The notes under the pieces were generated by a model. It was not told where the DNA came from, ran no database searches, and saw only the letters and a program-made list of their open reading frames with translations. A program made the translations under genes and the position numbers. This document shows, in pieces, positions 20,540-45,393 of a stretch of DNA of 45,393 nt (positions within the stretch are counted from its first letter, which is position 1; every line of letters starts with the position of its first letter). The DNA is from a virus, in IMG/VR virus record IMGVR_UViG_3300047440_000359, positions 1 through 45,393 of that record; one strand, 5' to 3'.

Positions 20540-21159
20540 GCGGCCTCCGTCGCCGGCAGCTCGACGTCGGCGATCTCGGCGCCGAGCGCATCGAACAGGT
20601 CGCCGAAGGTGATCGCGGGTTGCAGGCCTGCTTGCACGGTGGGTGCCTCGAGTGCGCCCGCGAACTCGGGCGTGAGCCGCCAGTCGCCGCGCTGCTTGGC
20701 CAACAGCCACAGGTCGAGGTCGCGCGGGGAGGCTCGGCCCTGCTCGACCACCAGAGCGGCGACTTCGAGCTCGCGCAGCACGAAAGCGGGGTGCCCCTCC
20801 CGAACGGCACGCTGGTAACCCTCCCTCGAGGTCGAGCAGACGCAGCGCTGGTCGCCGCGCATGAACGTGACGATGAACGGGACGGGCAAGCCGACCACCT
20901 GCCCTACGGCGAGCGTCAGGAGCTCGCGTGCCGCCCTCGAGGGAGCGCGGACGATGTCTCGGAGCGCTCGGTACGTCAGCAGCCCCTCGCGGCCCTCGTG
21001 CACGCCACAGAACGCGCTCAGGCGGTCGCACAGCGCTTCGGGCACGTGTTCGGCGGTAACGAGCAGGCGACCACCGTCATGTAACGACAGCGTCACACCC
21101 TCGTCGGTGCACCAATCGAACAGCGCGAGAGCCTCGGCGTGGACACTCAGAGCAGCCAT
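20536..21159 (-). CDS. Hypothetical protein with TubC-N-like docking domain
   Basis: The 207-residue protein opens with ALALFDWCTDEGVTLSLHDG and EALCDRLSAFCGVHEG, resembling the small TubC N-terminal docking fold often placed at the start of phage primase/helicase-type proteins or next to them. The rest is mostly helical and unassigned. Its start overlaps the end of the primase-helicase gene by 13 bases, so I infer a partner of that enzyme. The domain call is from memory of the pattern. Confidence 0.65.
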   Translation of the reverse strand: MAALSVHAEALALFDWCTDEGVTLSLHDGGRLLVTAEHVPEALCDRLSAFCGVHEGREGLLTYRALRDIVRAPSRAARELLTLAVGQVVGLPVPFIVTFMRGDQRCVCSTSREGYQRAVREGHPAFVLRELEVAALVVEQGRASPRDLDLWLLAKQRGDWRLTPEFAGALEAPTVQAGLQPAITFGDLFDALGAEIADVELPATEAA

Positions 21160-23624
21160 TTGTGCCCCCGACCACCGCCATTTGGCTTGTTTTCCTCTTC
21201 TTTTTCTTCTTTCTCCCCACAGTCCCCACTAAAGTCCCCACAGTTAGATCGGTGATCTGACTGTTCATTGCCTGGTCTGTGGGGACCGTGGGGACTGTGG
21301 GGACTAGGGTAAATAGCGCTAGCGGGAGGACCATTGATCGTCGCGCCCGCACATGTGGGAAATACTTTGAAACTCCCCACGGCCCCCACGGTCCCCACAG
21401 CCGGCTCTCCATGTACCTTCGGCCGGCGCCCCCATGCTCGCTCCGCACGCTCCATCGAGCGCTCTAGGTCGGTCACCAGCCGGACGTAGCGCCAGCCGTC
21501 GACGAACCGGTGGTCGACTCGGATGTTGACCTCGAGGATCGTCTCGTCAAAGCCGAGCTCGCGCACCCGTTCGCGCAGCGCTGCCGAAAAGCGCCGGGCC
21601 CCGAGCGGTTGGTGCCCATCGTCCTTGCACCACTCCTCGTACGCCTTGCGCAGTTCCTTGCGAGCGCAGCGCGTATCTTCCTCAAAGACACAGTGTCGCT
21701 CGAAGAACTCGCCGGCCGGATCCATCTCGGCCCGATAGTCCGCGGTCGACTCGACCACCGAGAGGGGGATGCGCAGGCCGCCCTCGAGCCAGGCCCGCAC
21801 GCCGCGCACGGCCCAGGCCAGCACCGCCGTGCGGAGCTCGGGCTCGCTACTGAGCGCATCACGGAAGCCCTGCTCGGGGTTGTCGACAGGCCGGGTGAAC
21901 GGGACGCGCACCATGCGCCGCCACATGCCGGCGTCGTCGCTCCGGATGGTGGGCGGGTCGTTGGCGACGAGCCAGAGCTTGAAGGTCGGCCGGAGCTCGA
22001 GCGGCTTCGAGTGCAGGTCGCGCACCGTGATGACGTCGCCGCCGGTGATCGTCTTGACCAGCCCTTCGGCCAGCTTCGCGCCCGCGTCGATCTCCTTGCA
22101 GACACAGATGCGTGCGCCCGCCAGCCGCACGAGGTCAGGACGCGGCCGATCACCTCCGCCTTGGTGCGGGGACGCCATGAACGTAGACATGTCCGCCGAG
22201 CGTGCATACTCGCCGAGCGCGGCCTCGATGGCGCCCACGAAGGTGCTCTTGCCGCGACCTGGTGGCCCGAAGATGAAGAACAGTTTGTCCTCGCGTGTGT
22301 CGCCAGTGAGCGAGTAGCCGACTGCGCGAGCGAGAAAGTCCGCAACCTCGGCGCTGCCGTCGGTAACGTGCTCGAGAAACATGTCCCACCGCTCGTGTCG
22401 GGCCTCGGGGTCGAAGTGCACTGGCGCGAGCTTGGTGATGAAGCGGCTGCGCTCGTGCTCGAGCAACTGGCCCGTGCGCAAGTCGACCGTGCCGTTCTCG
22501 CAGTTGAGCAGCCACGGGTCTGCGTCGAAGCGCTCGAGGCTGACCGCGAGCGAGCGCAGCGCGCCGGCAAGCTTGACGATGGCGACGATGCGGCCCTGGC
22601 CTTCGGAACGTCGAGCGTGCGCCCGCATGGCGTTGCGCGCATCCTCGTCTCCCACGGCATCCGCCTCCCCGTAGATGCTGCGCACTGTCGCCATCGCCCG
22701 ACGCACGACGATCTGTGTGTGGTCACGCTCCCAGCGCTTGCCGGTCCACGCGTACCAGGTCGACGTCTGCTCGCAGTAGCGCAACTCTTCGCCGTGCTGG
22801 CGCGCGAGGCGCTCGGCGTTCGCAAGATCTGTCAGCTCCGTGGCCGGCGCAGGCGCACCGGAGACGCGCGTCTCCTTGGCGACCTCGCCATGCTTTTTGG
22901 CGTCCGCCACCAGCGCACCGAGCTCGGACAGCTCATGCCGAGCGAGAAAGTCGTCGAGCTTCGGCGCATCCTCGGGGAAGCGCACGACGAACACGCGTGC
23001 CCCGGCGCCCATCAGCGCACGGCCGAGAGCCAACTCCTGGTCACGCACCAGCCTGTTGGTAAGCGCATCGCGATCGAACGCGATCATGATGTCGCGTCCC
23101 TCGAGTGCGACATGCGCGAAGTCAGGATGGAGCGTCTTTTGACCCTTCTCGTGCCACTGGTTCACGCCACTGACTGCGAGGCACACAAGGCCGTGGCTCT
23201 CCGCTGAGAGACACTTCTTTTCGCCCTCGGTGAGCCAGAGCGGGATCGTGGTGTCTTTGAGCGCGCGTCCTTCAAGTAGGGACGGCCCAAAGTACAGGTG
23301 CACGGGCGAGCCCTTGGCTTCGACGTATTTCTGCAGCGCAACTGAGCCGTCCTCCCGCGCGTTCTCGAACGGCTTGAAGGGCTTGCCGCGGTACCGCACC
23401 GGATCGCGATGGAATGGGAGATAGTAAGGGTAGACGATAACGGGAAGGTGTCCCTCCCAGTACTTAGGGGCGCGTCCGAGGAGCTTTGCCGCCGCGCGAG
23501 CGTCATCTAGGCTGTAAAGCCGCGCAGACAGCAGCACGTGGGGCGAGATCGCAGAGCCTTTGGTGAGCTCCGCGACCTGCTCGCTGGTCAGTGCCAGCTC
23601 GTTGTCGGACGACGCTTCGGGCAC
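21147..23624 (-). CDS. Primase-helicase (Toprim/DUF3854 plus D5-type SF3 helicase)
   Basis: The 825-residue protein (GTG start directly after the upstream TGA) has a Toprim-like primase region (Glu133 in TEGEKKC; Asp184/Asp186 in IAFDRD), a D5-type N-terminal region (about 270-440) and an SF3 helicase: Walker A FGPPGRGKST (452-461), the acidic KEIDAG segment (510-515), sensor Asn555 in VANDPP, and MWRRMVRVPF. It should prime and unwind at the phage origin. Residues from about 743 to the end are odd: VGTVGAVGS, SPHSPHGPH and CGDFSGDCGE repeats coded by DNA units described under the repeat at 21215-21398. No DNA polymerase is encoded, so host polymerase is probably recruited. Confidence 0.9.
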   Translation of the reverse strand: MPEASSDNELALTSEQVAELTKGSAISPHVLLSARLYSLDDARAAAKLLGRAPKYWEGHLPVIVYPYYLPFHRDPVRYRGKPFKPFENAREDGSVALQKYVEAKGSPVHLYFGPSLLEGRALKDTTIPLWLTEGEKKCLSAESHGLVCLAVSGVNQWHEKGQKTLHPDFAHVALEGRDIMIAFDRDALTNRLVRDQELALGRALMGAGARVFVVRFPEDAPKLDDFLARHELSELGALVADAKKHGEVAKETRVSGAPAPATELTDLANAERLARQHGEELRYCEQTSTWYAWTGKRWERDHTQIVVRRAMATVRSIYGEADAVGDEDARNAMRAHARRSEGQGRIVAIVKLAGALRSLAVSLERFDADPWLLNCENGTVDLRTGQLLEHERSRFITKLAPVHFDPEARHERWDMFLEHVTDGSAEVADFLARAVGYSLTGDTREDKLFFIFGPPGRGKSTFVGAIEAALGEYARSADMSTFMASPHQGGGDRPRPDLVRLAGARICVCKEIDAGAKLAEGLVKTITGGDVITVRDLHSKPLELRPTFKLWLVANDPPTIRSDDAGMWRRMVRVPFTRPVDNPEQGFRDALSSEPELRTAVLAWAVRGVRAWLEGGLRIPLSVVESTADYRAEMDPAGEFFERHCVFEEDTRCARKELRKAYEEWCKDDGHQPLGARRFSAALRERVRELGFDETILEVNIRVDHRFVDGWRYVRLVTDLERSMERAERAWGRRPKVHGEPAVGTVGAVGSFKVFPTCAGATINGPPASAIYPSPHSPHGPHRPGNEQSDHRSNCGDFSGDCGEKEEKEEENKPNGGGRGHKWLL
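21215..21398. repeat. Iteron-like clusters of CCCCAC/GTGGGG units inside the primase-helicase gene
   Basis: Three clusters of three units each are seen: CCCCAC at 21215, 21224 and 21236; GTGGGGAC at 21279, 21288 and 21297; CCCCAC at 21375, 21384 and 21393. Within clusters, units start nine bases apart except for one 12-base step. The middle cluster is inverted relative to the outer two, so large hairpins are possible. A+T-richer DNA lies between the clusters. The same unit is translated in different registers, so the DNA is what is kept. Helicase-embedded origins of replication have this look; this is inference. Confidence 0.7.
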
Positions 23625-24094: not shown

Positions 24095-24388
24095 TTACAT
24101 AGCCGGTCGGTTGGGTTGGGTTTCTAGGAACCGGCCGGCTTCGCAGCCGGCTTCGATCCAGGGGTCGTCCAGACACACCAGCACCGTGGCCACATCGAGC
24201 TCGAGCACGTCCGCGATGAGCGCGATGGTGCGCAGGTCGGTCTGGTGCAGTCCTCGCTCGATGCGACTCATGATCGGGCGGTGGGTGTCAATCCGCTTAG
24301 CGAGCTGTCGCTGCGTCAACTCGGCGTCGAGGCGCAGCTCGCGAATGCGGGCGCCCACCCGAAGAGCCACGTCGGCGACGGGCGTCAT
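24095..24388 (-). CDS. XRE-family transcriptional regulator
   Basis: The 97-residue protein is one HTH_3 domain: ALRVGARIRELRLDAELTQR, QLAKRIDTHRPIMSRIERG, then LRTIALIADVLELDVATVL. This is a typical Cro/CI-type fold. It lies in the minus-strand early operon rather than beside the operators at 25293-25362, so it may be a second regulator, for example of middle or late genes. Its ATG overlaps the stop of the small gene upstream. Confidence 0.88.
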   Translation of the reverse strand: MTPVADVALRVGARIRELRLDAELTQRQLAKRIDTHRPIMSRIERGLHQTDLRTIALIADVLELDVATVLVCLDDPWIEAGCEAGRFLETQPNRPAM

Positions 24389-24627
24389 GCTGCCCCCGGA
24401 GCCAGCCGCACCGGCCGGCAGTAGGCGAGGGCGGGACAGCGGCGCAGATACCGCACGCTCCAGTGCGTCTGCTCGCCCAGGCGCGGCAGCGACACCAGCG
24501 CAACGCCCCAGTCGTCGATGGACAGGACCATGCCGCGCAGCACGCGCCCGCGACGGCGCAGCGGGCGGCGCGCGGCGTCAACCAGCACCACCGCGTCACC
24601 GAGGCTGATGGGGCGGGCGTCACGCAT
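24385..24627 (-). CDS. Small hypothetical protein (SH3-like pattern)
   Basis: The ATG at 24627 is used; the frame extends upstream only as a shadow. The 80-residue protein has a short-strand pattern (LGDAVVLVDAARRPLRRRGR, VLRGMVLSIDDWGVALVSLP) like small SH3/KOW-type barrels. It is coupled by ATGA to the XRE gene. Function unknown. Confidence 0.65.
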   Translation of the reverse strand: MRDARPISLGDAVVLVDAARRPLRRRGRVLRGMVLSIDDWGVALVSLPRLGEQTHWSVRYLRRCPALAYCRPVRLAPGAA

Positions 24628-24844
24628 CGCGATCCCTCGCCAGCATCCTGAGGATGTGGCTGCGCTGGCGGGCGTCCTTGTCGTCGTAGACGTGGAACAG
24701 GCGCCCGCGAACGCATCGGCGACAGCCGTTCTCTGCGGCGTCGACCCAGGAGCCATTCGTCGTGCTCGTCCCGAGGGCGACACCGACCGCGAATCCAACC
24801 ATCGCGATCAGGAGAGCGACGCCGAGCGAAATCTCAGTCGTCAT
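24620..24844 (-). CDS. Small single-pass membrane protein
   Basis: The 74-residue protein has an N-terminal membrane segment (residues 5-27, ISLGVALLIAMVGFAVGVAL) and a cytoplasmic or periplasmic tail with GCRRCVRGRLFHVYDDKDAR, including a CxxC pair. It overlaps both neighbours, as is usual in this operon. Function unknown; an early membrane role is possible. Confidence 0.65.
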   Translation of the reverse strand: MTTEISLGVALLIAMVGFAVGVALGTSTTNGSWVDAAENGCRRCVRGRLFHVYDDKDARQRSHILRMLARDRDA

Positions 24845-25041
24845 GGCTTGCGCCCAGCGTAAAGACAGCAGCTCGCAGACGGCGCGCTCCCGGGAGGTGA
24901 GACGCCACGCGCCTGCGAGCTGCTGACCACACGCGCGCAGTAAGCGGGCAAGCCCACTCTGGACGCGCGCAAACCTGAGTGTGAGACGGAGACGAGTGTC
25001 TGTGTCACGGTGTGCCCCCCGGCTTCCGTGGTTGTCGTCAC
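24841..25041 (-). CDS. Possible small protein
   Basis: A 66-residue frame (start MTTTTEAGGHTV) ends with a TGA that overlaps the next ATG, which fits operon style. It has no clear ribosome site, its composition (Ser, Ala, Cys) is weakly coding, and I recognise nothing in it. It may instead be untranslated leader DNA between the Cro-like gene and the membrane gene. Confidence 0.35.
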   Translation of the reverse strand: MTTTTEAGGHTVTQTLVSVSHSGLRASRVGLPAYCARVVSSSQARGVSPPGSAPSASCCLYAGRKP

Positions 25042-25061
25042 ATCAAGAAAAGAGGGCGCGA

Positions 25062-25280
25062 TCAGGCGACGCGGCGAGGCTCGCTATCGAGCGCATCGCA
25101 GTCCGTCAGCTCAGCGACAGAAACAGCGCCGCCCGTCGCGCGCGAAATCAGCACAGCGACCTTGAGGCCGACCTTGTGTCGCTTCGCGCGATTGACGCTG
25201 TGCCAGGAGACGCCGCTGTCTCGCCACACCCGCGTAAGTGCGCCGTGCGGTTGCTGTTTTAGCCACGTCGGAAAGTCCAT
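25062..25280 (-). CDS. Cro-like DNA-binding protein
   Basis: The ATG at 25280 gives a 72-residue protein (MDFPTWLKQQPHGALTRVWR, then GVSWHSVNRAKRHKVGLKVA), a small HTH protein of the YdaS/Cro type. It is the first gene of the minus-strand early operon and is divergent from the repressor. Its promoter region overlaps operator A. There is no Shine-Dalgarno, and the promoter layout matches that of the 26419 gene. I infer a Cro role: to turn off the repressor during lytic growth. Confidence 0.72.
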   Translation of the reverse strand: MDFPTWLKQQPHGALTRVWRDSGVSWHSVNRAKRHKVGLKVAVLISRATGGAVSVAELTDCDALDSEPRRVA

Positions 25281-25292
25281 CACGAAAAACGT

Positions 25293-25307
25293 ATGCGCTT
25301 TCCGTAT
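25293..25307. promoter_or_regulatory. Operator A, over the Cro-side early promoter
   Basis: The 15-base site is ATGCG-N5-CGTAT on the plus strand, that is ATACG-N5-CGCAT read toward the Cro-like gene. It overlaps a minus-strand promoter candidate: TTGC about 20 bases upstream and CATACG nine bases before the ATG. The same layout is found at operator C. Confidence 0.65.
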
Positions 25308-25347
25308 GAAAAGCAATCCGCGAACGCTCGACGGTCCCCGCCGTGAT

Positions 25348-25362
25348 ATGCGATAACCGTAT
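25348..25362. promoter_or_regulatory. Operator B, touching the repressor start codon
   Basis: The site is ATGCG-N5-CGTAT and ends at the base before the repressor ATG (25363). A -10-like GATAAC (25352-25357) lies within it, with TCGACG 18 bases further up. If this is the promoter, the repressor mRNA would begin at or near its ATG, like lambda cI from PRM, and repressor bound at B would shut its own gene. Confidence 0.6.
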
Positions 25363-25977
25363 ATGGACGTGGTGTATGTGCGGCCCGCAGACTACGCCGA
25401 GATGATTCTGACTCCGGGGCAATACCTCGAGGTCGAGCTCGACCGGTTGGGGCTCGATAAAGCAAAGCTCGCGCGCAAGATGGGCATCCGCCAGGCAACC
25501 GTCTCTGACTGGTGCAGCGGCAAGGGAGCCTTCAACGGAAAGACGGCCGTGGCGGCGCGCAATCGTCGCGAGGTCGAACGGGTGCTTGGACTGCCCAAAG
25601 GGCATCTCGACAAGCAGTCGGAGATGACGATCCATCGCGACCGATGCGCGGAGGCGCTCGAGGAGTTCCTGAACAGTCCCATTGCTCCCAAGGACATCAC
25701 CGAGCTGGAGATGACCAATCTCAGGGACACCTTGCCTCCCATCAATCTCGAGCCGGAGCCTGATTTTTACGAGACGTACCTGTTCCTGCTCCGCAATAAG
25801 CTCAAGCCGTCCAGGTATGCAGAGGAGCTTGCGGAGAACCGAGAGCTGGCCAAGCGCGTCGAGAAACAGCTCGAAAAAGCGTACGAACCAGTAGAAGCGA
25901 AGAGCGAAGAGTTCAAAAAGAAGCGTGCGAAGCCTCCGCACAAGCCCGCTCCACAGAGGCAGCCGCGCTACAGGTGA
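25363..25977 (+). CDS. Phage repressor (CI-like, XRE family)
   Basis: The 204-residue protein has an HTH at about residues 28-65 (LDRLGLDKAKLARKMGIRQA, VSDWCSGKGAFNGKTAVAA) and a C-terminal half rich in Glu/Lys helices (AEELAENRELAKRVEKQLEK). I see no Ser/Lys peptidase of LexA type, so induction may not be by self-cleavage. The ATG at 25363 has no ribosome site; a second ATG at 25402 (codon 14) is just before the HTH. It faces away from the Cro-like gene with operators A and B between. Base composition is more A+T-rich than its neighbours. Confidence 0.8.
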   Translation: MDVVYVRPADYAEMILTPGQYLEVELDRLGLDKAKLARKMGIRQATVSDWCSGKGAFNGKTAVAARNRREVERVLGLPKGHLDKQSEMTIHRDRCAEALEEFLNSPIAPKDITELEMTNLRDTLPPINLEPEPDFYETYLFLLRNKLKPSRYAEELAENRELAKRVEKQLEKAYEPVEAKSEEFKKKRAKPPHKPAPQRQPRYR

Positions 25978-26013
25978 CCCGCAAAGAATTTGGCGCCCTT
26001 GTCGCCACCTCAG

Positions 26014-26352
26014 ATGGGTCTGTACGGTGAGCACCTAACCCCCGGGGGGAATGTGGAGCTCACCGCGCTGGAGCTGGCGAAATTCGCGAGGCTGTGGGTG
26101 TCACGCTCAGACGAGTGCGGGCATCTTCGCCTAACACGACACGGACGGATCGTGATCGGGCCGGGGGTGAGCGACGACGCAATCGCGACCGCGGCCTGCC
26201 GAGCGATGGTGGGGCGCGAGCTCGGGCGGCAGCCAACTGAGGCAGCCGTCCGCTCGCGCGTCCGTTCCTACGGGTTTCGCTACGTCGGTGGCGTGAAGCC
26301 TCTGCATCGTGCGACGAGACCCCCTATGAGCTCACGCCGCCGGTCCGCCTAG
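26014..26352 (+). CDS. Small hypothetical protein after the repressor
   Basis: The frame is open from 25990, with candidate starts at the TTG of 25990, the ATG of 26014 (used, 112 residues) and a GTG after GGGGGG at about 26051. The product contains SRSDECGHLRLTRHGRIVIG and MVGRELGRQPTEAAVRSRVR, mixed strands and helices. It is in the repressor transcript. I do not recognise it; it could be a repressor partner or antirepressor. Confidence 0.5.
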   Translation: MGLYGEHLTPGGNVELTALELAKFARLWVSRSDECGHLRLTRHGRIVIGPGVSDDAIATAACRAMVGRELGRQPTEAAVRSRVRSYGFRYVGGVKPLHRATRPPMSSRRRSA

Positions 26353-26382
26353 AAGCGCACTCACAAAGCGCAAGCCTCTGCC

Positions 26383-26410
26383 TTGCACGCGCATACGGTT
26401 TACGTATACG
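26383..26410 (+). promoter_or_regulatory. Rightward early promoter with operator C
   Basis: TTGCAC (26383-26388) and TATACG (26405-26410) are separated by 16 bases. The operator ATACG-N5-CGTAT (26393-26407), a perfect palindrome in its arms, covers the spacer and the start of the -10. The -10 ends eight bases before the ATG at 26419 and no ribosome site is present, so the transcript should be leaderless or nearly so. The layout is almost the same as on the Cro side. Confidence 0.7.
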
Positions 26411-26418
26411 CTTGTCGC

Positions 26419-26682
26419 ATGGCTCACCTACTCACCTTCGCCGGTAGTTTCGGGCGCGCTGAAGTTTCATTCCGCAACGAGCTCTGGCACGTCGCGTACA
26501 ACGGGCGTGACGACCCGTATGCGCACCTCGACCAGGCGTGCTCGGTCGCGATCAGCCTCGCCCACCACGGTGTGCCGCCCGCCCAGGGCGCTGTCGCCCA
26601 CTGCATCGCCGAGCTCGACGCCGCCACCGATCCGGCCGTGTCCGACGGGCACTACTCTGAGTGTCTGGAGGCGTGCCGATGA
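26419..26682 (+). CDS. First gene of the rightward early operon, hypothetical
   Basis: The ATG at 26419 is used; an upstream TTG start would lie inside the promoter. The 87-residue protein (MAHLLTFAGSFGRAEVSF) has RNELWHVAYNGRDDPYAHLD and a helix ACSVAISLAHHGVPPAQG. It has no clear family. Its TGA overlaps the ATG of the nuclease gene. As the first product under operator C it is a candidate early regulator or host take-over protein. Confidence 0.7.
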   Translation: MAHLLTFAGSFGRAEVSFRNELWHVAYNGRDDPYAHLDQACSVAISLAHHGVPPAQGAVAHCIAELDAATDPAVSDGHYSECLEACR

Positions 26683-27965
26683 CGAGCCCCGCGCACAAGC
26701 TGCCGCTCGCGCCACAGGAGCGCGCCAAGACGCTCACGCCGCGTTGGGACCACCGCAAGTACGGCACGCTCGACGACCCGGCGCACAAGAGTCACATGAG
26801 CTCGCTCCTCGGCGAGTTCAGCTGCACCGAGCAGTTTCGGCGCGACCGCTTGCGCGAAGTCAGCGGCGAACAGCGCGACACGTTGTCGGGAAAGACCGAG
26901 TTCGGCACCGCGGGACACGAGACCATCGCGCGCGCACTGCGCAACCCCAACACGCTCAAGGCTGTGCTCGCCGGCACGGGTACACCGTCCATCGACCAGG
27001 TGCGGTCCGTGGTCCTGCAGGAGTTTGAGCGCGTGGTTCAAGGCAAGCAGGTTGCCTGGTACGGCAAGGCTGAGCAGGACGACGTGCACAGCAGCATTGC
27101 ATGGATGTGCGAGGGGCTGTTTCGCGAGCTCCACTGGCACGTGGCGGCGGTCGAGCTGGTCGAGTCGGGCTTTATCGCTCAGCTCGGCGATCTCTTCGTC
27201 GAGGGGCACACCGACCTCGTGTACCGCCCGACGCAGAACCCCGAGGCGCTCGCGCTGACCGACTGGAAAACCGGCGGGCACAAGCCAAACCAGATCGAGC
27301 TCGATCACGGCTACGAGGGCGGGTTCTACTCCCTGGCGCTCGAGCGCGGTCTATTCCTCCCGACTCACGTGCTGCAAGGGTGGCGCGACGCAAAAGACAA
27401 GACAGTGGTCCCGCTGGATGCCGAGGACATCGCGCTGCTGAGCCGAGCGCCGAGTGACCGCGAAGCCATGCACATCGCGCTGCGCGGCATTATGCGGCGC
27501 AACCTGCACGACGAGCCCATCCCCGAGGGCGTGCGCTTCTTCGGGCAATTCCCCGAGCTCATCTATCAGACGCATCTGGCGGACTACGTGCCGTACGAGC
27601 GCAAGGGCAATAAGACCATCGAGCGAGCGGAAGACCTCGAGCACTGGTCGCGCATCACCGGTGGCTCGCGCCAAGCCGGTGACAAGGTTTCGTACGAGAA
27701 GGGCATGACGCGGGGCGGCGCTTGGATGCGGGTGAAGCGCTCGGCCGAGGACATCACGCGGCTTGAAAAGATGCTGCGCACGGTGGTCGGCTGGGTGCGC
27801 TTCGGCAAGTTCGTGCCGGCGGTCAGCGAGAAGTGCAACCGCTGCTCCTATCGGGCCCCGTGTTTGACCGATGGGTACGAGTTACGCGGCGAGGCGGCCA
27901 AGGAGCTCAACGCGGCGCTTCGCGGGCTCGACCTCGACGACTCCGACCTGAGTACGGACGACTGA
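26679..27965 (+). CDS. RecB/Cas4-like PD-(D/E)XK nuclease with Fe-S cysteines
   Basis: The 428-residue protein shows the RecB nuclease motifs: His80 in FGTAGHE, Asp179 in VEGHTDLVYR, and Asp195/Lys197 in LTDWKTGG. A Cys at 49 (EFSCTEQF) together with Cys386, Cys389 and Cys395 (CNRCSYRAPC) makes the one-plus-three Cys pattern that holds a 4Fe-4S cluster in Cas4 and AddB. Such enzymes resect DNA ends. Next to the DNA-binding and RecD2-like genes it likely belongs to a phage recombination and replication module. The start overlaps the previous gene by ATGA. Confidence 0.88.
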   Translation: MTSPAHKLPLAPQERAKTLTPRWDHRKYGTLDDPAHKSHMSSLLGEFSCTEQFRRDRLREVSGEQRDTLSGKTEFGTAGHETIARALRNPNTLKAVLAGTGTPSIDQVRSVVLQEFERVVQGKQVAWYGKAEQDDVHSSIAWMCEGLFRELHWHVAAVELVESGFIAQLGDLFVEGHTDLVYRPTQNPEALALTDWKTGGHKPNQIELDHGYEGGFYSLALERGLFLPTHVLQGWRDAKDKTVVPLDAEDIALLSRAPSDREAMHIALRGIMRRNLHDEPIPEGVRFFGQFPELIYQTHLADYVPYERKGNKTIERAEDLEHWSRITGGSRQAGDKVSYEKGMTRGGAWMRVKRSAEDITRLEKMLRTVVGWVRFGKFVPAVSEKCNRCSYRAPCLTDGYELRGEAAKELNAALRGLDLDDSDLSTDD

Positions 27966-28009
27966 CATCGGCGAAGTGATCGAGCAGCGGGCTGCTCAGA
28001 AGGAGACAG

Positions 28010-28900
28010 ATGATGGCCAAGAGTAAGGAACAGGCAGCACTCGCGCTTGCACCGCAAGACGAGGCGGCCGCGCTCGCGGTGTTCGATGACTTCAACTTCG
28101 AGAACGACGGCCTCGAGGAGATCGACGCGGAGGACATTCGCTTTGCGGTCAAGGTCTGGAACATGCGCTCGAAAAAGCCCGAGGGTGGCCTGTTTCAGGT
28201 CGACGAATTCTTTGACACGCTCACCGAGAAGACGGCGCGCGAGCTGCGCTGCGTGTTCGTGAGCCTGCACAAGACGAACGACTACGCCTACTTCGACAAC
28301 AGCACGCAGGAGACGGTGCGCGTCTGCTCAAGCTACAACCGTATCGACGGCACCCTGCGCGTTGAGCATCCGCAGCTCCACCTGGCCGAAGGCACGGTCC
28401 GCAAGTGCGAGACGTGCCCTGATTCGGAATGGCACAAGGAGCGCGACAAGGACGGCCGTGAGCGCAACGTCCGCAACTGCGCGCCAGTCTACGGCGTGAT
28501 CGGCGTCGAACTCGACGACGCTGGCAACCTGCTCAGCCCGTTCATGATTCGCTTCAAAAAGACTTCGCTGCAGCCCTTCAAGAGCTACTTGCAGAAGCAC
28601 CACATCAAGCGTCGCCAGGACCCCAAGACACGCAAGATGGTCGACGTGCCGCTGTTCGGGTACGCCGTGCGCATCACTCTCGAGGCGGACAAGGGCGGTC
28701 AATACGCAGTGCCGCTCATCGAGCGTGGCGAAATCATGCCGCGCGAGCTGCTGATCTCACTCGCGGAGCAGGTGAAGCACTTCCGCGAGATGGCGGACGA
28801 CGTCACACGCGCGGCCGAAAAGAAAGAGACGCAGCACGGCGCCGAGGGCGTCGTCGAGACGCAGGGTGAGCCGCTGCGTTCGGACGACTTCGCAGGCTGA
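28010..28900 (+). CDS. Zinc-containing single-strand-binding candidate
   Basis: AGGAG precedes the ATG at 28010 (a second ATG is at 28013). The 296-residue protein has an acidic N-terminus, a middle with KCETCPDSEWHKERDKDGRE then CAPVYGVIG, giving C-x2-C, a His and a further Cys that could hold zinc, and beta strands such as FMIRFKKTSLQPFKSYLQKH. T4 gp32 and related phage SSBs also hold zinc in an OB fold. Being between an end-resection nuclease and a helicase fits an SSB or annealing role. The call is an inference, not a recognised family hit. Confidence 0.55.
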   Translation: MMAKSKEQAALALAPQDEAAALAVFDDFNFENDGLEEIDAEDIRFAVKVWNMRSKKPEGGLFQVDEFFDTLTEKTARELRCVFVSLHKTNDYAYFDNSTQETVRVCSSYNRIDGTLRVEHPQLHLAEGTVRKCETCPDSEWHKERDKDGRERNVRNCAPVYGVIGVELDDAGNLLSPFMIRFKKTSLQPFKSYLQKHHIKRRQDPKTRKMVDVPLFGYAVRITLEADKGGQYAVPLIERGEIMPRELLISLAEQVKHFREMADDVTRAAEKKETQHGAEGVVETQGEPLRSDDFAG

Positions 28901-28933
28901 GAGCACGGCTGACCGCCGGGAGTTGGTAAGTAC

Positions 28934-29839
28934 ATGGCTGACAAGATCAAAGGTGAGCTGCAGTCCTTCACGGTTCGCACGGCGGACTTCTGGGGCACAG
29001 GCGTGGTGCGCACGAAGCACGACGGCGGCAGCGTCGCGATCGTCGGCAAGCTGGTGGGCGCGCAGCCCGGCGACACGGTCGAGCTCGAAGGCGACCTCAC
29101 CCAGCATCCGAAGTACGGCCCGCAGTTCAAGGTCCGCTCGTGCACGGTGGTGTTGCCGAGCGATGTGAGTGGCGTCGTCGGCTGGTTGGCGTCGAAGCTG
29201 CCCCAGATCTCTCGCCGGCGGGCTGAGCAGTTGGTCGAGAAGTTCGGCGTCGATGAGCTCTGGAAGCTGCTCGACGCCGGCGACGTGGGCCAACTCTGCG
29301 TGGTCGATGGCGTCACGCCCGGTCGCGCGCTCGAGATTCTTGCCGCCTACAAGGAGCACAAGGGAGAGCGCGACCGGCTGGTACGCCTGAAAACTTGGGG
29401 GCTCACCGACAACCAGATCGCGCGCGTGATCAAGGAGTGGGGCGAGAACGCCGAAGAGCGCATGAGCCAGAACCCCTACGAGTTGATGGAGTGCGTCGAC
29501 GGCTTCGGCTGGAAGCGTGCCGATCAGGTCGCGCTGAAGATGGGTATGAAGATGGACTCGCCACCTCGCCTCTCTGCCGGGCTGCTCCACGCGATGGGCG
29601 AAGCGAAGGCCGCCGGGCATTGCTTCTGGTCGCAGGGGAAGCTCGTCTCTGTCGTCACGACGAAGATCTGCGGCATCACCGACGAGAGCCTGGTGCGGCG
29701 CGCGCTCGACAGCCTGCTCGAGCGCAAGAAGCTGGTCCGGCTCGACACAAAGATCTACCTGCCCGAACTCGCCGAGGCCGAGGGCCGACTTGCCAAGGTG
29801 TTTGCGACCCGCGCGCGCAGCGCAGGAAGGGCAGCGTAA
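28934..29839 (+). CDS. RecD2-like helicase, N-terminal part (OB and helix-hairpin-helix)
   Basis: The 301-residue protein matches the front of RecD2: an OB-like region (residues 1-75, VAIVGKLVGAQPGDTVELEG), helix-hairpin-helix repeats (KFGVDELWKLLDAGDVGQLC; MSQNPYELMECVDGFGWKRA) and a winged-helix-like end. It stops at a TAA (29837-29839) where RecD2 normally goes on into the ATPase, which here starts one base later in another frame. Either two polypeptides form the enzyme or one base is missing or extra. Expected role: DNA unwinding 5' to 3' in recombination. Confidence 0.85.
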   Translation: MADKIKGELQSFTVRTADFWGTGVVRTKHDGGSVAIVGKLVGAQPGDTVELEGDLTQHPKYGPQFKVRSCTVVLPSDVSGVVGWLASKLPQISRRRAEQLVEKFGVDELWKLLDAGDVGQLCVVDGVTPGRALEILAAYKEHKGERDRLVRLKTWGLTDNQIARVIKEWGENAEERMSQNPYELMECVDGFGWKRADQVALKMGMKMDSPPRLSAGLLHAMGEAKAAGHCFWSQGKLVSVVTTKICGITDESLVRRALDSLLERKKLVRLDTKIYLPELAEAEGRLAKVFATRARSAGRAA

Positions 29840-29840
29840 C

Positions 29841-31124
29841 TTGGAACTCGACCCCTCCCAGGAGCGAGCCGTCGACCTCGTCTGCACCGCGCCCTTTGCC
29901 ATCCTCACCGGCGGACCCGGCACGGGCAAGAGCACCTGCTTGCGCGTCGCCCTCGACCGTATGGACCAGGCCCGGCAGAGCTACGTGCTGGCCTCGCCCA
30001 CCGGCAAGGCAGCGAAGCGCATGACCGAGGCCACGGGGCGACCGGCGAGCACCATCCATCGGCTGCTCGGTTGGAACCGCAATGGCTGGGAGTACGACGC
30101 GACCAACCCGCTCCCCTACGACTGCATCATCATCGACGAAAGCTCAATGCTCGACCTCGAGCTCGCCGACGCGCTGGTCGAAGCCATCGCGCCCGACTCG
30201 CGCATCGTCTTTGTGGGCGACGCGAACCAGCTGCCGAGCGTGGGCCCCGGGCGCATCCTCGCCGACCTGGTCGAGGCGGGCCTCGTTCCGGTCGCGCGCC
30301 TGACGCAGGTGCACCGCGCCGCGGCCGAGAGTTGGATCTGCAGGAACGCGCCCAAGGTCCTCGCCGGCGAGCCGCTCGAGCTCGGTACCTGCCCCGACTT
30401 CCGCTTTTACGAGGCCGATGATGTCAATGAGGCTGCGCGGCTGGTCGCGCAGATCGTCACGATGGATGAGTACCGGAGCGCTCAGGTGCTCGCGCCCCAG
30501 CGCACCACCGCGTGCGGCGTCGAGGAGCTCAACATCCACCTGCAACAGGAGCTCAATCCGCGCCGTGGTCAGCACGATGAGTGGATCCTCGGCGACAAGA
30601 CCAAGTATGCCCGCACGCTGCGTAAGGGTGACCGGGTCATTCAGACCAAGAATGACTACAACCTGATCGGCACGAACGGCGCCCTCGGCGTGTTCAACGG
30701 GGAGGTCGGTGAGATCGTCCAGGTCGGACAGGTGCTGACCGTCAACTTCGGCGACCGGCACGTCGAGTACAACCGCGGCAACGTGCTCAGGCTTGATCTC
30801 GCGTACGCGCTCACCGTGCACAAGAGCCAGGGCAGCGAGTTCGCCTGGGTCGTCTGCGTCGTGCACAGCGCGCATACGTACATGCTCACTCGGCAGCTCT
30901 TCTACACGGGCATCACGCGCGCGAAGAAGGGCGTGATCCTCGTCGGCAATCGCAAGGGTCTCGCGGCAGCGACGAGCGCGAAGGAGCCGCCGAAGCGGAA
31001 CACCGCGCTGGTCGAACGCATGCGCACGCTCGTGCTCGAGGACGTCGACAACGAAATCGCCGGCGCGGATGCAGACAACGATTCATCTGCGCTGGGCAGG
31101 ACCGCGGACGACTTGCCGTGGTGA
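29841..31124 (+). CDS. RecD2-like helicase, C-terminal ATPase part
   Basis: The TTG at 29841 is one base after the upstream TAA and AGGAAGG lies ten bases before it. The 427-residue product has the SF1B motifs in order: Walker A LTGGPGTGKST (22-32), IIIDESSML, VGDANQLPSVGPG, RLTQVHRA, LTVHKSQGSEF and FYTGITRAKKGVILVG. It is therefore a complete motor that lacks only the N-terminal domain, which the gene upstream supplies. Both parts are well conserved, which argues against decay. The end of the gene is GTGGTGA, overlapping a possible start of the next. Confidence 0.9.
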   Translation: MELDPSQERAVDLVCTAPFAILTGGPGTGKSTCLRVALDRMDQARQSYVLASPTGKAAKRMTEATGRPASTIHRLLGWNRNGWEYDATNPLPYDCIIIDESSMLDLELADALVEAIAPDSRIVFVGDANQLPSVGPGRILADLVEAGLVPVARLTQVHRAAAESWICRNAPKVLAGEPLELGTCPDFRFYEADDVNEAARLVAQIVTMDEYRSAQVLAPQRTTACGVEELNIHLQQELNPRRGQHDEWILGDKTKYARTLRKGDRVIQTKNDYNLIGTNGALGVFNGEVGEIVQVGQVLTVNFGDRHVEYNRGNVLRLDLAYALTVHKSQGSEFAWVVCVVHSAHTYMLTRQLFYTGITRAKKGVILVGNRKGLAAATSAKEPPKRNTALVERMRTLVLEDVDNEIAGADADNDSSALGRTADDLPW

Positions 31125-33672: not shown

Positions 33673-34008
33673 ATGCGCAAGCCCGACAACGACAACGCGA
33701 AAGGCGGTGGCCCAATGGATGACGCGAAGCCGACGGGCTCCCTTTTGACAGTGCTGACGGCAGATCAGCTGCGCGCCATCGTCGCCGAGGCCGTGCGCGA
33801 CGCGCTGAACATCCAGCGCGGCAACGAGGGCTACCTTGACACTGAGCAGGCCGCCGCCTACCTCGGCACGACGACGCGCAGCCTCCAGCACGCCGTCACG
33901 CGCGGCCAGATTGTGCCGGACCACCGAGGCAGCCGACACGGCGGACTCAAGGGCAATCGCTTCACGCGCAAGACGCTCGACGCATTCATCACCCGGCGCG
34001 CCGGATAA
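33673..34008 (+). CDS. Excisionase-like / HTH_17 DNA-binding protein
   Basis: GGAG precedes the ATG at 33673. The 111-residue protein ends with a MerR/excisionase-type winged helix: YLDTEQAAAYLGTTTRSLQH, AVTRGQIVPDHRGSRHGG, and NRFTRKTLDAFITRR. The N-terminal 45 residues are linker-like, followed by a short helix. It lies 13 bases upstream of the integrase gene, the usual place for Xis or an integrase regulator. It may direct excision or activate int. Confidence 0.78.
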   Translation: MRKPDNDNAKGGGPMDDAKPTGSLLTVLTADQLRAIVAEAVRDALNIQRGNEGYLDTEQAAAYLGTTTRSLQHAVTRGQIVPDHRGSRHGGLKGNRFTRKTLDAFITRRAG

Positions 34009-34021
34009 GAAGTACCACTCG

Positions 34022-35296
34022 ATGGCCACACCGAAGAAGAAGACTCAGAAGGCCCGCAAGGACGGGCTACGTGCTGACGGCAAGTGCCCTCACACCGGCA
34101 AGCTCCGCTACGTCGCGGTGCTCCGCAAAAAGGCCGGCGGAAAGTTCATCGTCGACACCGAGCGCATCGTGCTTGCAGACAGTCGCGGCGAAGCGATGGT
34201 GGCTGCCGAGAAGCTGCTGGCTGAGCTGGTGGACGAGAAGCTTGGATTGCGCGCCAAGTCGCGCATCCGCATGGATACAGCGCTCGCCGCTTGGTTGCCC
34301 ACCCTGCGCAAGGGCACCCGTGACGCGTACGGGTCGCACACTCGCCGCATTGCCGCCGCACTCGGCGCGGACCGCTACCTTCACACGCTCGACGCGCAGG
34401 AGCTGCAGCGGGTGATCGCCACCGCCCAGGTCAGCGACAAGACGGCATCGCAGATTCGCGTCGCCGCGATTGCACTGCTCGAGTGGGCGAAGGGGCAAGG
34501 CTACGTCGCGTCGAACGTCGCGCGTGACACGACTAAGCGCCGCACCCGCAAGAGCGGCGAGCAGCAGCTTGCGGAGGCGCGCGCGCTGCCGGTGCGCAAG
34601 GCGATGACCATGGACGAGCTCGAGCGCTTCCTCCTTGAGCTTCAGAAAATCGACCCGGACGTCTACGCACTCGCCGGTACCCAGTTCTACTTGGGCTGCC
34701 GGTTCGGCGAGGTGAGCGCCCTCCGCTGGGAGAGCATCAACTTCCGAACCGGCGAGGTGCGGATCGAGCAGGCCCAGTACGAAGGCGAGATGGGGCCGCC
34801 CAAGAACGGCACCGCCCGCGTCGCCGGTCTCGGCCCCGACTGGCTGACCGTGCTCATGCAGCACAAGCAGCAGCTCACCCGGGAAGGCCGCGCCGGCTCC
34901 GACGTCTGGTGCTTCCCCGCCAAGCCGCACTACCAGCGCAAGCGGACGGACCCGCTGCTGGGCTACCAGCACGTGCACACGGCCTTCCGGCGCGCGATGC
35001 GCACGTGCGGCATCGATGTCGGCCCCGCCACCCACGCGCTGCGTCACACGATGATCACGCTCTCGCAGCTCGCCGCGCAGGACGGCTTCGCCCTGGTCGC
35101 TCAGCGCCTCGCCGGGGTGCACGGGGCCTCCAAGGAGCTGCAGGCCGCCGTGGGGCACGCCGACGCCCGGATGACCGCCCACTACACGGAGGTGCCCGCA
35201 GCTACCGTCGTGAACTTCGCGGCCCACCTGGAGGCCCGGCTTCAGTGGGGGGGAAGGTTGGGGGGGAAACCTTCCAAGGATGGCGAGAAAGCCTAG
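34022..35296 (+). CDS. int: Tyrosine integrase
   Basis: The 424-residue protein has the full set of tyrosine recombinase residues: Arg227 (GCRFGEVSALRW), Lys261 (PPKNGTARV), His338 and Arg341 (THALRHTMI), His379 (VGHADARM) and the nucleophile Tyr388 (HYTEV). A core-binding SAM-like domain lies at about 85-165 and a basic arm-binding N-terminus at 1-50. The C-terminus (QWGGRLGGKPSKDGEKA) is coded by a G-run that recurs 170 bases further on. The enzyme would join phage and host DNA at att sites. No tRNA-like core is seen nearby. Confidence 0.95.
   Translation: MATPKKKTQKARKDGLRADGKCPHTGKLRYVAVLRKKAGGKFIVDTERIVLADSRGEAMVAAEKLLAELVDEKLGLRAKSRIRMDTALAAWLPTLRKGTRDAYGSHTRRIAAALGADRYLHTLDAQELQRVIATAQVSDKTASQIRVAAIALLEWAKGQGYVASNVARDTTKRRTRKSGEQQLAEARALPVRKAMTMDELERFLLELQKIDPDVYALAGTQFYLGCRFGEVSALRWESINFRTGEVRIEQAQYEGEMGPPKNGTARVAGLGPDWLTVLMQHKQQLTREGRAGSDVWCFPAKPHYQRKRTDPLLGYQHVHTAFRRAMRTCGIDVGPATHALRHTMITLSQLAAQDGFALVAQRLAGVHGASKELQAAVGHADARMTAHYTEVPAATVVNFAAHLEARLQWGGRLGGKPSKDGEKA
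35243..35269. repeat. G-run direct repeat, copy 1
   Basis: A 27-base unit CAGT-G7-AAGGTT-G7-AAA at the end of the integrase gene. It recurs at 35439-35465 with one difference (26 of 27). Each copy has two runs of seven or eight G, enough for a G-quadruplex. It could be an integrase arm site or part of attP. Confidence 0.75.
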
Positions 35297-44308: not shown

Positions 44309-45393
44309 AGGAGCCCCTCACTCGGCGGCACCTGCGTCAGCGCCACGGCCGTCACGGCGCCCAGCACCGGCACCTGGCCGATCGTGAGCGGCACGTCGGC
44401 GGCAGGCAGCACGATCTCGACGTGGAAGATCTGCGGAAGCGCCGCGCCGATCACCGTGCGAATCGCGTCGAGGAAGACTTTGCCCGAGAGGCCGATCACG
44501 TTGCCGCCGATGGGCTGGCCGCTCATGAACGACACCAGGCGCAGGGCGATGGCGGCCTCGATCTGCGCCGGACTGAGCCCGCTCGTGTTGTAGAGCCAGA
44601 CCCGATAGGAGATCGCGACGGGCACCGGCGTGGCGCTGGCCGCCGTGGCCGTGACAGCGAGCGGCGCGGCCCGCTTTTGGATCGCGTCATCGACGGCGCC
44701 GAGGTCGGTCGCGAGGTCCGATGCCGTGCCCGACACGGCGCCCGTGGCCGTCGCCACGTAGATCGTGACGTGGCCGTACCCATCCCGCGACACACGCACG
44801 CGCATCACGCCAACGGGCGAGCCGTCGAGGCGCAGCGCATTGCGGGCGGCATAGGTGTACGCGTCCCACGGCCCGAACGGCGACAGCGCGCCGAGCTTTT
44901 CCGCGCACCGCACGCGTAGCGCCGGATCCGTCTCGGCGTCGAGCCCCACCACGGCCAGCGCGTTGACGACGGTGACACCAGACATGCTCGGCGACTGGAT
45001 CTCGGTGATGGCCCCAGCGGTCGACGTGCTCGCGCTCCCCGCCTCGACGGCGTAGACGGCGATGGTGAGCGTCGACAGCGCCTCGAGTGTGAACGAAGTG
45101 GTGTTGCGGTAGGTCTTGCCCGTGGTCGGGTTGATGACCGTCAGATCGTCGGCGTCCAGCTGGTAGGTGCCGCCGCCGGGGTTACGCAGTGTGACCTCGC
45201 CCGATGCGAACGTCGCATAGACCTTCTCGACGCCGTACACGTGGTGGGCGACGAGCGCGAGCCACTTGTCCTCGGCCAGCTCGAGGAAGCCGGAGCGGGC
45301 GATGTTGGCCGTGAGCTCCGACAGTGCCGCGATCACGATGGCACAGGACGCGATCATGGTGCGCACCACGGCGCCCGGCTTCCAGCTCGTCGT
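44305..45393 (-). CDS. Baseplate J-like protein, main part (gene continues at 1-223)
   Basis: This holds the C-terminal 320 or so residues of J, plus the 127 repeated bases. It has ITEIQSPSMSGVTVVNALAV, then LDAETDPALRVRCAEKLGAL, then ALRLDGSPVGVMRVRVSRDG, all characteristic of the J family, where a G-d-E-T/D-x-xLR-R motif is kept. It ends with VLGAVTAVALTQVPPSEGLL. The apparent start in this half is not real; the true ATG is at 223 in the other end. J is the wedge protein between the gp25-like wedge and gpI. Confidence 0.93.
   Translation of the reverse strand, partial: TTSWKPGAVVRTMIASCAIVIAALSELTANIARSGFLELAEDKWLALVAHHVYGVEKVYATFASGEVTLRNPGGGTYQLDADDLTVINPTTGKTYRNTTSFTLEALSTLTIAVYAVEAGSASTSTAGAITEIQSPSMSGVTVVNALAVVGLDAETDPALRVRCAEKLGALSPFGPWDAYTYAARNALRLDGSPVGVMRVRVSRDGYGHVTIYVATATGAVSGTASDLATDLGAVDDAIQKRAAPLAVTATAASATPVPVAISYRVWLYNTSGLSPAQIEAAIALRLVSFMSGQPIGGNVIGLSGKVFLDAIRTVIGAALPQIFHVEIVLPAADVPLTIGQVPVLGAVTAVALTQVPPSEGLL
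45267..45393. repeat. 127-bp terminal direct repeat (copy 2)
   Basis: These bases are identical to 1-127 and mark the closure of the circle within the J gene. Confidence 0.95.

Follow-up and report, generated by a model that had tools for sequence, protein, structure and literature searches.

In phage lambda, the repressor gene lies between two divergent early operons, and symmetric operators mark each early promoter as well as the start of the repressor gene. A Cro-like gene comes first in one of the operons, an extra gene lies behind the repressor and the integrase is encoded elsewhere. The operators are 17 bp long and lie some 20-24 bp apart, with three sites on one side and three on the other.

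Such plans have also been described outside lambda. The immB region of phiKO2 has operators between the repressor and cro genes and two more at the other early operon, all of them bound by the repressor (PMC4997575). In the PaaR2/YdaS region of the cryptic prophage CP-933P, a small second repressor lies opposite the main one, the repressor mRNA is leaderless and inverted repeats are found on both sides; YdaS is the Cro-type partner in this lambda-like region (PMC8630535).

Here, we analyse a locus of this kind in an uncultivated virus, IMG/VR record IMGVR_UViG_3300047440_000359 (45,393 bases, GC 67%; this whole stretch is called the window below). It has in common with lambda the placement of the repressor, symmetric operators, a candidate Cro-like first gene, an extra gene in the spot that the rex genes hold in lambda, and an integrase. 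It differs from lambda in having 15-bp operators at a 13-bp pitch and in their distribution (2+1 and 2 sites versus 3 and 3), an S24 autoprotease domain was not found, and the genome is unrelated. The window phage would work like lambda but is not a lambdoid phage. With phiKO2 it shares operators both between repressor and cro and at the other early operon. Yet the three OR sites of phiKO2 fit into a single stretch of 80 bp and its prophage is a plasmid, whereas the window encodes an integrase; and binding has been shown in phiKO2, whereas we infer it here. The likeness to CP-933P lies in a small second regulator opposite the repressor (here by a weak fold match) and in inverted repeats on both sides, but the repeats of CP-933P are 18 bp long and more numerous, and a toxin-antitoxin pair follows its repressor. 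The stoperators of cluster A mycobacteriophages are many asymmetric sites spread genome-wide, whereas those of the window are symmetric and lie in one region.

Results

The phage and the genes around the proposed switch

The record carries a direct terminal repeat of 127 bases (positions 1-127 and 45267-45393) and is thus circular, complete or terminally redundant. It encodes tail sheath, baseplate proteins, portal, head protease and terminase, together with a primase, a PD-(D/E)XK nuclease, a RecD-like helicase and a tyrosine integrase, a gene set that indicates a temperate myophage-like genome. The integrase (PF00589) is present in all four phages that we compared, i.e. the window and three relatives: L005 (IMG/VR 3300047440_000409), L007 (IMG/VR 3300026121_000002) and L015 (IMG/VR 3300005543_000001). 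Searches gave no match to a serine recombinase or an AAA_31 ParA-type protein, no Rfam match and no tRNA. Positions 24500-29000 had no DNA match in phage records, where tblastn with the repressor and with the PD-(D/E)XK protein also gave none, and relatives of the repressor and the nuclease were not found in the bacterial genomes searched.

Table 1. Regulatory sites and genes of the proposed switch in the window
Feature	Position	Strand	Sequence or basis
DNA primase, leftward operon	21147..23624	-	annotated match
Cro-like candidate, 72 aa, first gene of leftward early operon	25062..25280	-	weak fold match
Operator A' (degenerate)	25280..25294	-	ATACGTTTTTCGTGA; 2 mismatches; unchanged in L005
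Putative leftward early promoter	25290..25316	-	TTGCTT (25316-25311), 15 bp, CATACG (25295-25290)
Operator A	25293..25307	-	ATACGGAAAGCGCAT; exact; within leftward early promoter; conserved in L005
Operator B	25348..25362	-	ATACGGTTATCGCAT; exact; immediately before repressor ATG; unchanged in L005
Repressor, 204 aa, HTH_3 domain	25363..25977	+	PF01381, 27.3 bits, above curated cut-off
Small gene behind repressor, 99 aa from GTG	26053..26352	+	ORF; block kept in L005
Putative rightward early promoter	26383..26410	+	TTGCAC (26383-26388), 16 bp, TATACG (26405-26410); ATG at 26419
Operator C	26393..26407	+	ATACGGTTTACGTAT; exact; within rightward early promoter
Operator C'	26406..26420	+	ATACGCTTGTCGCAT; exact; one change in L005
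First gene of rightward early operon in window phage	26419..26682	+	ORF/alignment
PD-(D/E)XK nuclease, rightward early operon	26661..27965	+	PF12705
RecD-like helicase, rightward early operon	29790..31124	+	annotated matches
Tyrosine integrase	33836..35296	+	PF00589 (at 34601-35194 +)

A family search gave no match for the product of the small gene behind the repressor. Its preferred start is the GTG at 26053, preceded by a G-rich stretch; a TTG start at 25990 was rejected on account of a one-base insertion in L005 upstream of 26053. The gene that opens the rightward early operon aligns with genes located several positions further into the early operons of L005 and L007, and the window phage has therefore probably lost the initial genes of this operon.

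A palindrome confined to the repressor region

Within the 45 kb of the window, the motif ATACG-N5-CGYAT is matched exactly at four sites, which all fall in a 1.13-kb stretch surrounding the repressor gene. A previous reading made from the sequence alone (the sequence-only reading) had listed three of them, A, B and C, each of which was found where it had been placed, and had noticed no further copy. That count was too low: C' is a fourth exact site, and A' a further, degenerate one. The scan of the whole window that this reading had called for found exact copies in the repressor region and none elsewhere. Markov models of order 1-3 predict 0.025-0.045 unique exact sites against the four observed, and none of 600 simulations reached four. 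When all 5-N5-5 quasi-palindromes were scanned, the ATACG family had four of its four members in the region and zero elsewhere. The motif is real, and its count far exceeds chance. Looser matches behave otherwise: five further matches in the window have one mismatch, versus 2.0 expected for all matches with at most one, and the total with at most two mismatches (50 versus 43.7 expected) is that of chance. Copies with one or two mismatches elsewhere were discarded as operators, because their counts equal the chance background or come close to it. A' itself is a weak candidate, as is its contribution.

The sites form a simple layout. Two 15-bp units, 13 bp apart from centre to centre, lie at each early promoter, and a single unit, B, lies at the repressor start, its centre 55 bp from that of A. 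The A'/A pair mirrors the C/C' pair and both run into a start codon: A' overlaps the A of the ATG of the 25062 gene; C' shares 2 bp with C and also covers the first two bases of the ATG at 26419. Hence the same symmetric operator is present at both putative early promoters and at the presumed promoter of the repressor.

The alignment of the two early promoters proposed in the sequence-only reading is exact to the base. On the minus strand, the region of A reads TTGC-TTTT-CATACGG-AAAG-CGCATACG-TTTTTCGTG-ATG, and on the plus strand that of C reads TTGC-ACGCG-CATACGG-TTTA-CGTATACG-CTTGTCGC-ATG. A scan with the sigma-70 consensus found neither early promoter. Given the position of the putative leftward promoter and the ATG at 25280, its leader would be a few bases at most, and both early promoters would produce near-leaderless transcripts. 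As a query against the collection, the early-promoter pattern returned L005 alone.

The two regulators

The product of 25363 is an HTH protein that also matches PHROG transcriptional repressors. We found no S24 peptidase or CI-type autoprotease domain in it, Pfam and NCBIfam listing HTH families only, so that nothing points to induction via RecA-stimulated self-cleavage. Modelling gave structures of poor quality for both regulators (pLDDT 53-54), and the repressor model had no usable fold match. The 25062 product has no sequence family match, Pfam included. Its low-confidence model (pLDDT 53) has a five-helix layout for which YdaS of CP-933P provides the sole matches with Z of at least 2 (Z 3.0); the top three Foldseek matches are also YdaS, but with E 0.55. 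Thus, the repressor named in the sequence-only reading stands as an HTH repressor, whereas the Cro identity of the gene opposite comes down to a weak fold match to YdaS. A Cro role is plausible for this protein.

A relative with the same operators

L005 shares with the window a block matching positions 24178-26426 at 88% identity, in which the repressor is 97% identical. This block holds the repressor, the Cro-like gene and every operator, and it ends right after C'. The homology stops a few bases past the start codon behind C', and a different gene follows in L005. None of the 43 bases of A', A and B has changed between the two phages, and C plus C' differ at 2 of 28 bases, one change making C the perfect palindrome ATACGGTTTCCGTAT. 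Overall, the operators have 2 changes in 71 bp and the adjacent spacers 14 in 80 bp (Fisher p 0.003). Since all operators and both regulators lie in this one shared block, they look as if they had been swapped together as an immunity module.

The gene directly behind operator C in L005 (6059-6610) looks by eye like an HNH-type endonuclease. Either it was inserted or it was retained at this place, which another gene occupies in the window phage.

Relatives with another operator

L007 and L015 share early genes with the window at about 75-78% DNA identity, but their regulators differ, and their repressors give no confident alignment with that of the window. In L007, AGACA-N5-TGTCT is found at the left early promoter (two sites, 24 bp apart), at the repressor start and at the right early promoter; the 5-N5-5 scan places four of the four members of the AGACA family at those sites and none elsewhere in 18.5 kb. 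The pattern AGACANNNNNTGTNC occurs twice each in the whole records of L007 and L015, in both cases confined to the left and right early promoters, and is absent from the genomes of the window and L005. It was derived from the L007 and L015 early-promoter regions themselves, which makes the unbiased 5-N5-5 ranking the stronger test for L007. L015 fails this ranking because its sites are less symmetric; it has degenerate sites only, and at its repressor start no site stands out clearly. As a query, the Cro-like gene of L007 and L015 did not add any relative to this phage group.

Hence, these two phages resemble the window phage in their layout, their homologous early operons, their integrase and the 5-N5-5 palindromes at both early promoters, whereas the repressor, the Cro-like genes and the operator sequence (AGACA-N5-TGTCT type) differ. 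In all three, the operator seems either to lie directly upstream of a -10-like hexamer or to span it, a short distance from the start codon. From these differences, L007 and L015 are predicted to be heteroimmune to the window phage.

A conserved noncoding block

A noncoding block of about 170 bases (window 24860-25035, minus strand) separates the Cro-like gene from the replication genes and is kept in all four phages although their regulators differ. On the leftward transcript it folds into three hairpins, the last of which is a long near-perfect stem; with its flanks, the window copy reaches -59 kcal/mol. Six pairs have two-sided changes across the four sequences, and sliding the partners destroys most of the pairing. 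The shuffle control, based on four sequences, is no more than suggestive (the observed value was reached in 33 of 500 shuffles). The block holds the place of nutR/tR1 in lambda and could be an antitermination or put-like RNA, a terminator or a replication origin.

Discussion

We consider it very likely that this locus is a lambda-like switch in which the HTH repressor 25363 would bind the palindrome, block both early operons and regulate itself. The idea of one repressor holding both operons, put forward in the sequence-only reading, gains support from comparison: the operators are kept in L005 while their flanks change, the finding of another palindrome at the same two early promoters in L007 and L015 fits it as well, and all four phages encode an integrase. 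The likeness to lambda concerns this part; CI-style induction by self-cleavage is not indicated, given the lack of an S24 match. The immunity region of this temperate phage would then act like the lambda switch in mirror image. A dimer of 25363 would bind the 15-bp palindrome, and the A'+A and C+C' pairs would each extend across an early promoter, beginning in the -35/-10 spacer and reaching the start codon. In the lysogen, RNA polymerase would thereby be kept off both operons, the leftward one (Cro-like, replication) and the rightward one (nuclease, helicase). Site B, immediately ahead of the repressor ATG, would provide autoregulation, and it is there that the Cro-like protein would turn off the repressor. 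Dimers might also bind cooperatively, but the 13-bp pitch makes 15-bp neighbours overlap by 2 bp, unlike the separated operators of lambda, so simultaneous occupancy is not certain.

One might speculate that only the Cro-like protein uses the palindrome as its operator, or that the two proteins share out the sites, e.g. with 25062 only at B. By analogy, the telomere phages phiKO2 and PY54 might serve as precedent for such sharing: in phiKO2, CB occupies three OR and two OL sites and Cro only OR3 (PMC4997575). That B is single and stands apart from A would fit. But an operator for Cro only would not need remote right-promoter sites kept with the repressor gene, and the repressor block and the operators travel together. 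These points speak against a Cro-only operator; a division of the sites between the two proteins is conceivable. We regard the explanation as a whole as unlikely. The resemblance between A and C might instead arise from two promoters read by one sigma factor, as the sequence shared by both early promoters includes a -10-like hexamer (TATACG or CATACG). This is highly improbable, since the shared sequence is palindromic and is found again at B, ahead of the divergent repressor gene, L005 shifts C towards perfect symmetry, and in relatives with other repressors the two corresponding promoters have a palindrome of quite another sequence. Palindromes repeated in the vicinity of replication genes also call to mind replication iterons or partition sites. 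Yet the sites fall into two clusters separated by 1 kb and mark three start codons around the gene of an HTH repressor; the genome has an integrase, an AAA_31 ParA-type gene was not found, and such a role is hardly credible.

The lambda-like switch can be phrased in more specific terms. Operators overlapping by 2 bp would be chained into the start codons of near-leaderless genes, with dimers stacked at a 13-bp pitch, unlike in lambda, and the module would be exchanged whole with its remote operator, the crossover lying just behind C'. Taken jointly, these propositions are tentative and somewhat doubtful.

The design of the switch is already known, and the window is a clear further example of it, with no new mechanism. 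New are the details, i.e. the overlapping 13-bp pitch, the operators running into start codons and the existence of related uncultivated phages with swapped operators. The region, which has no DNA-level match among sequenced isolates, provides a complete and testable immunity region in uncultivated, high-GC, myophage-like temperate phages. The comparison shows the boundary of a module lying at an operator. Since the same plan occurs in related phages with two types of operator and repressor, immunity groups might be predicted among them from sequence alone.
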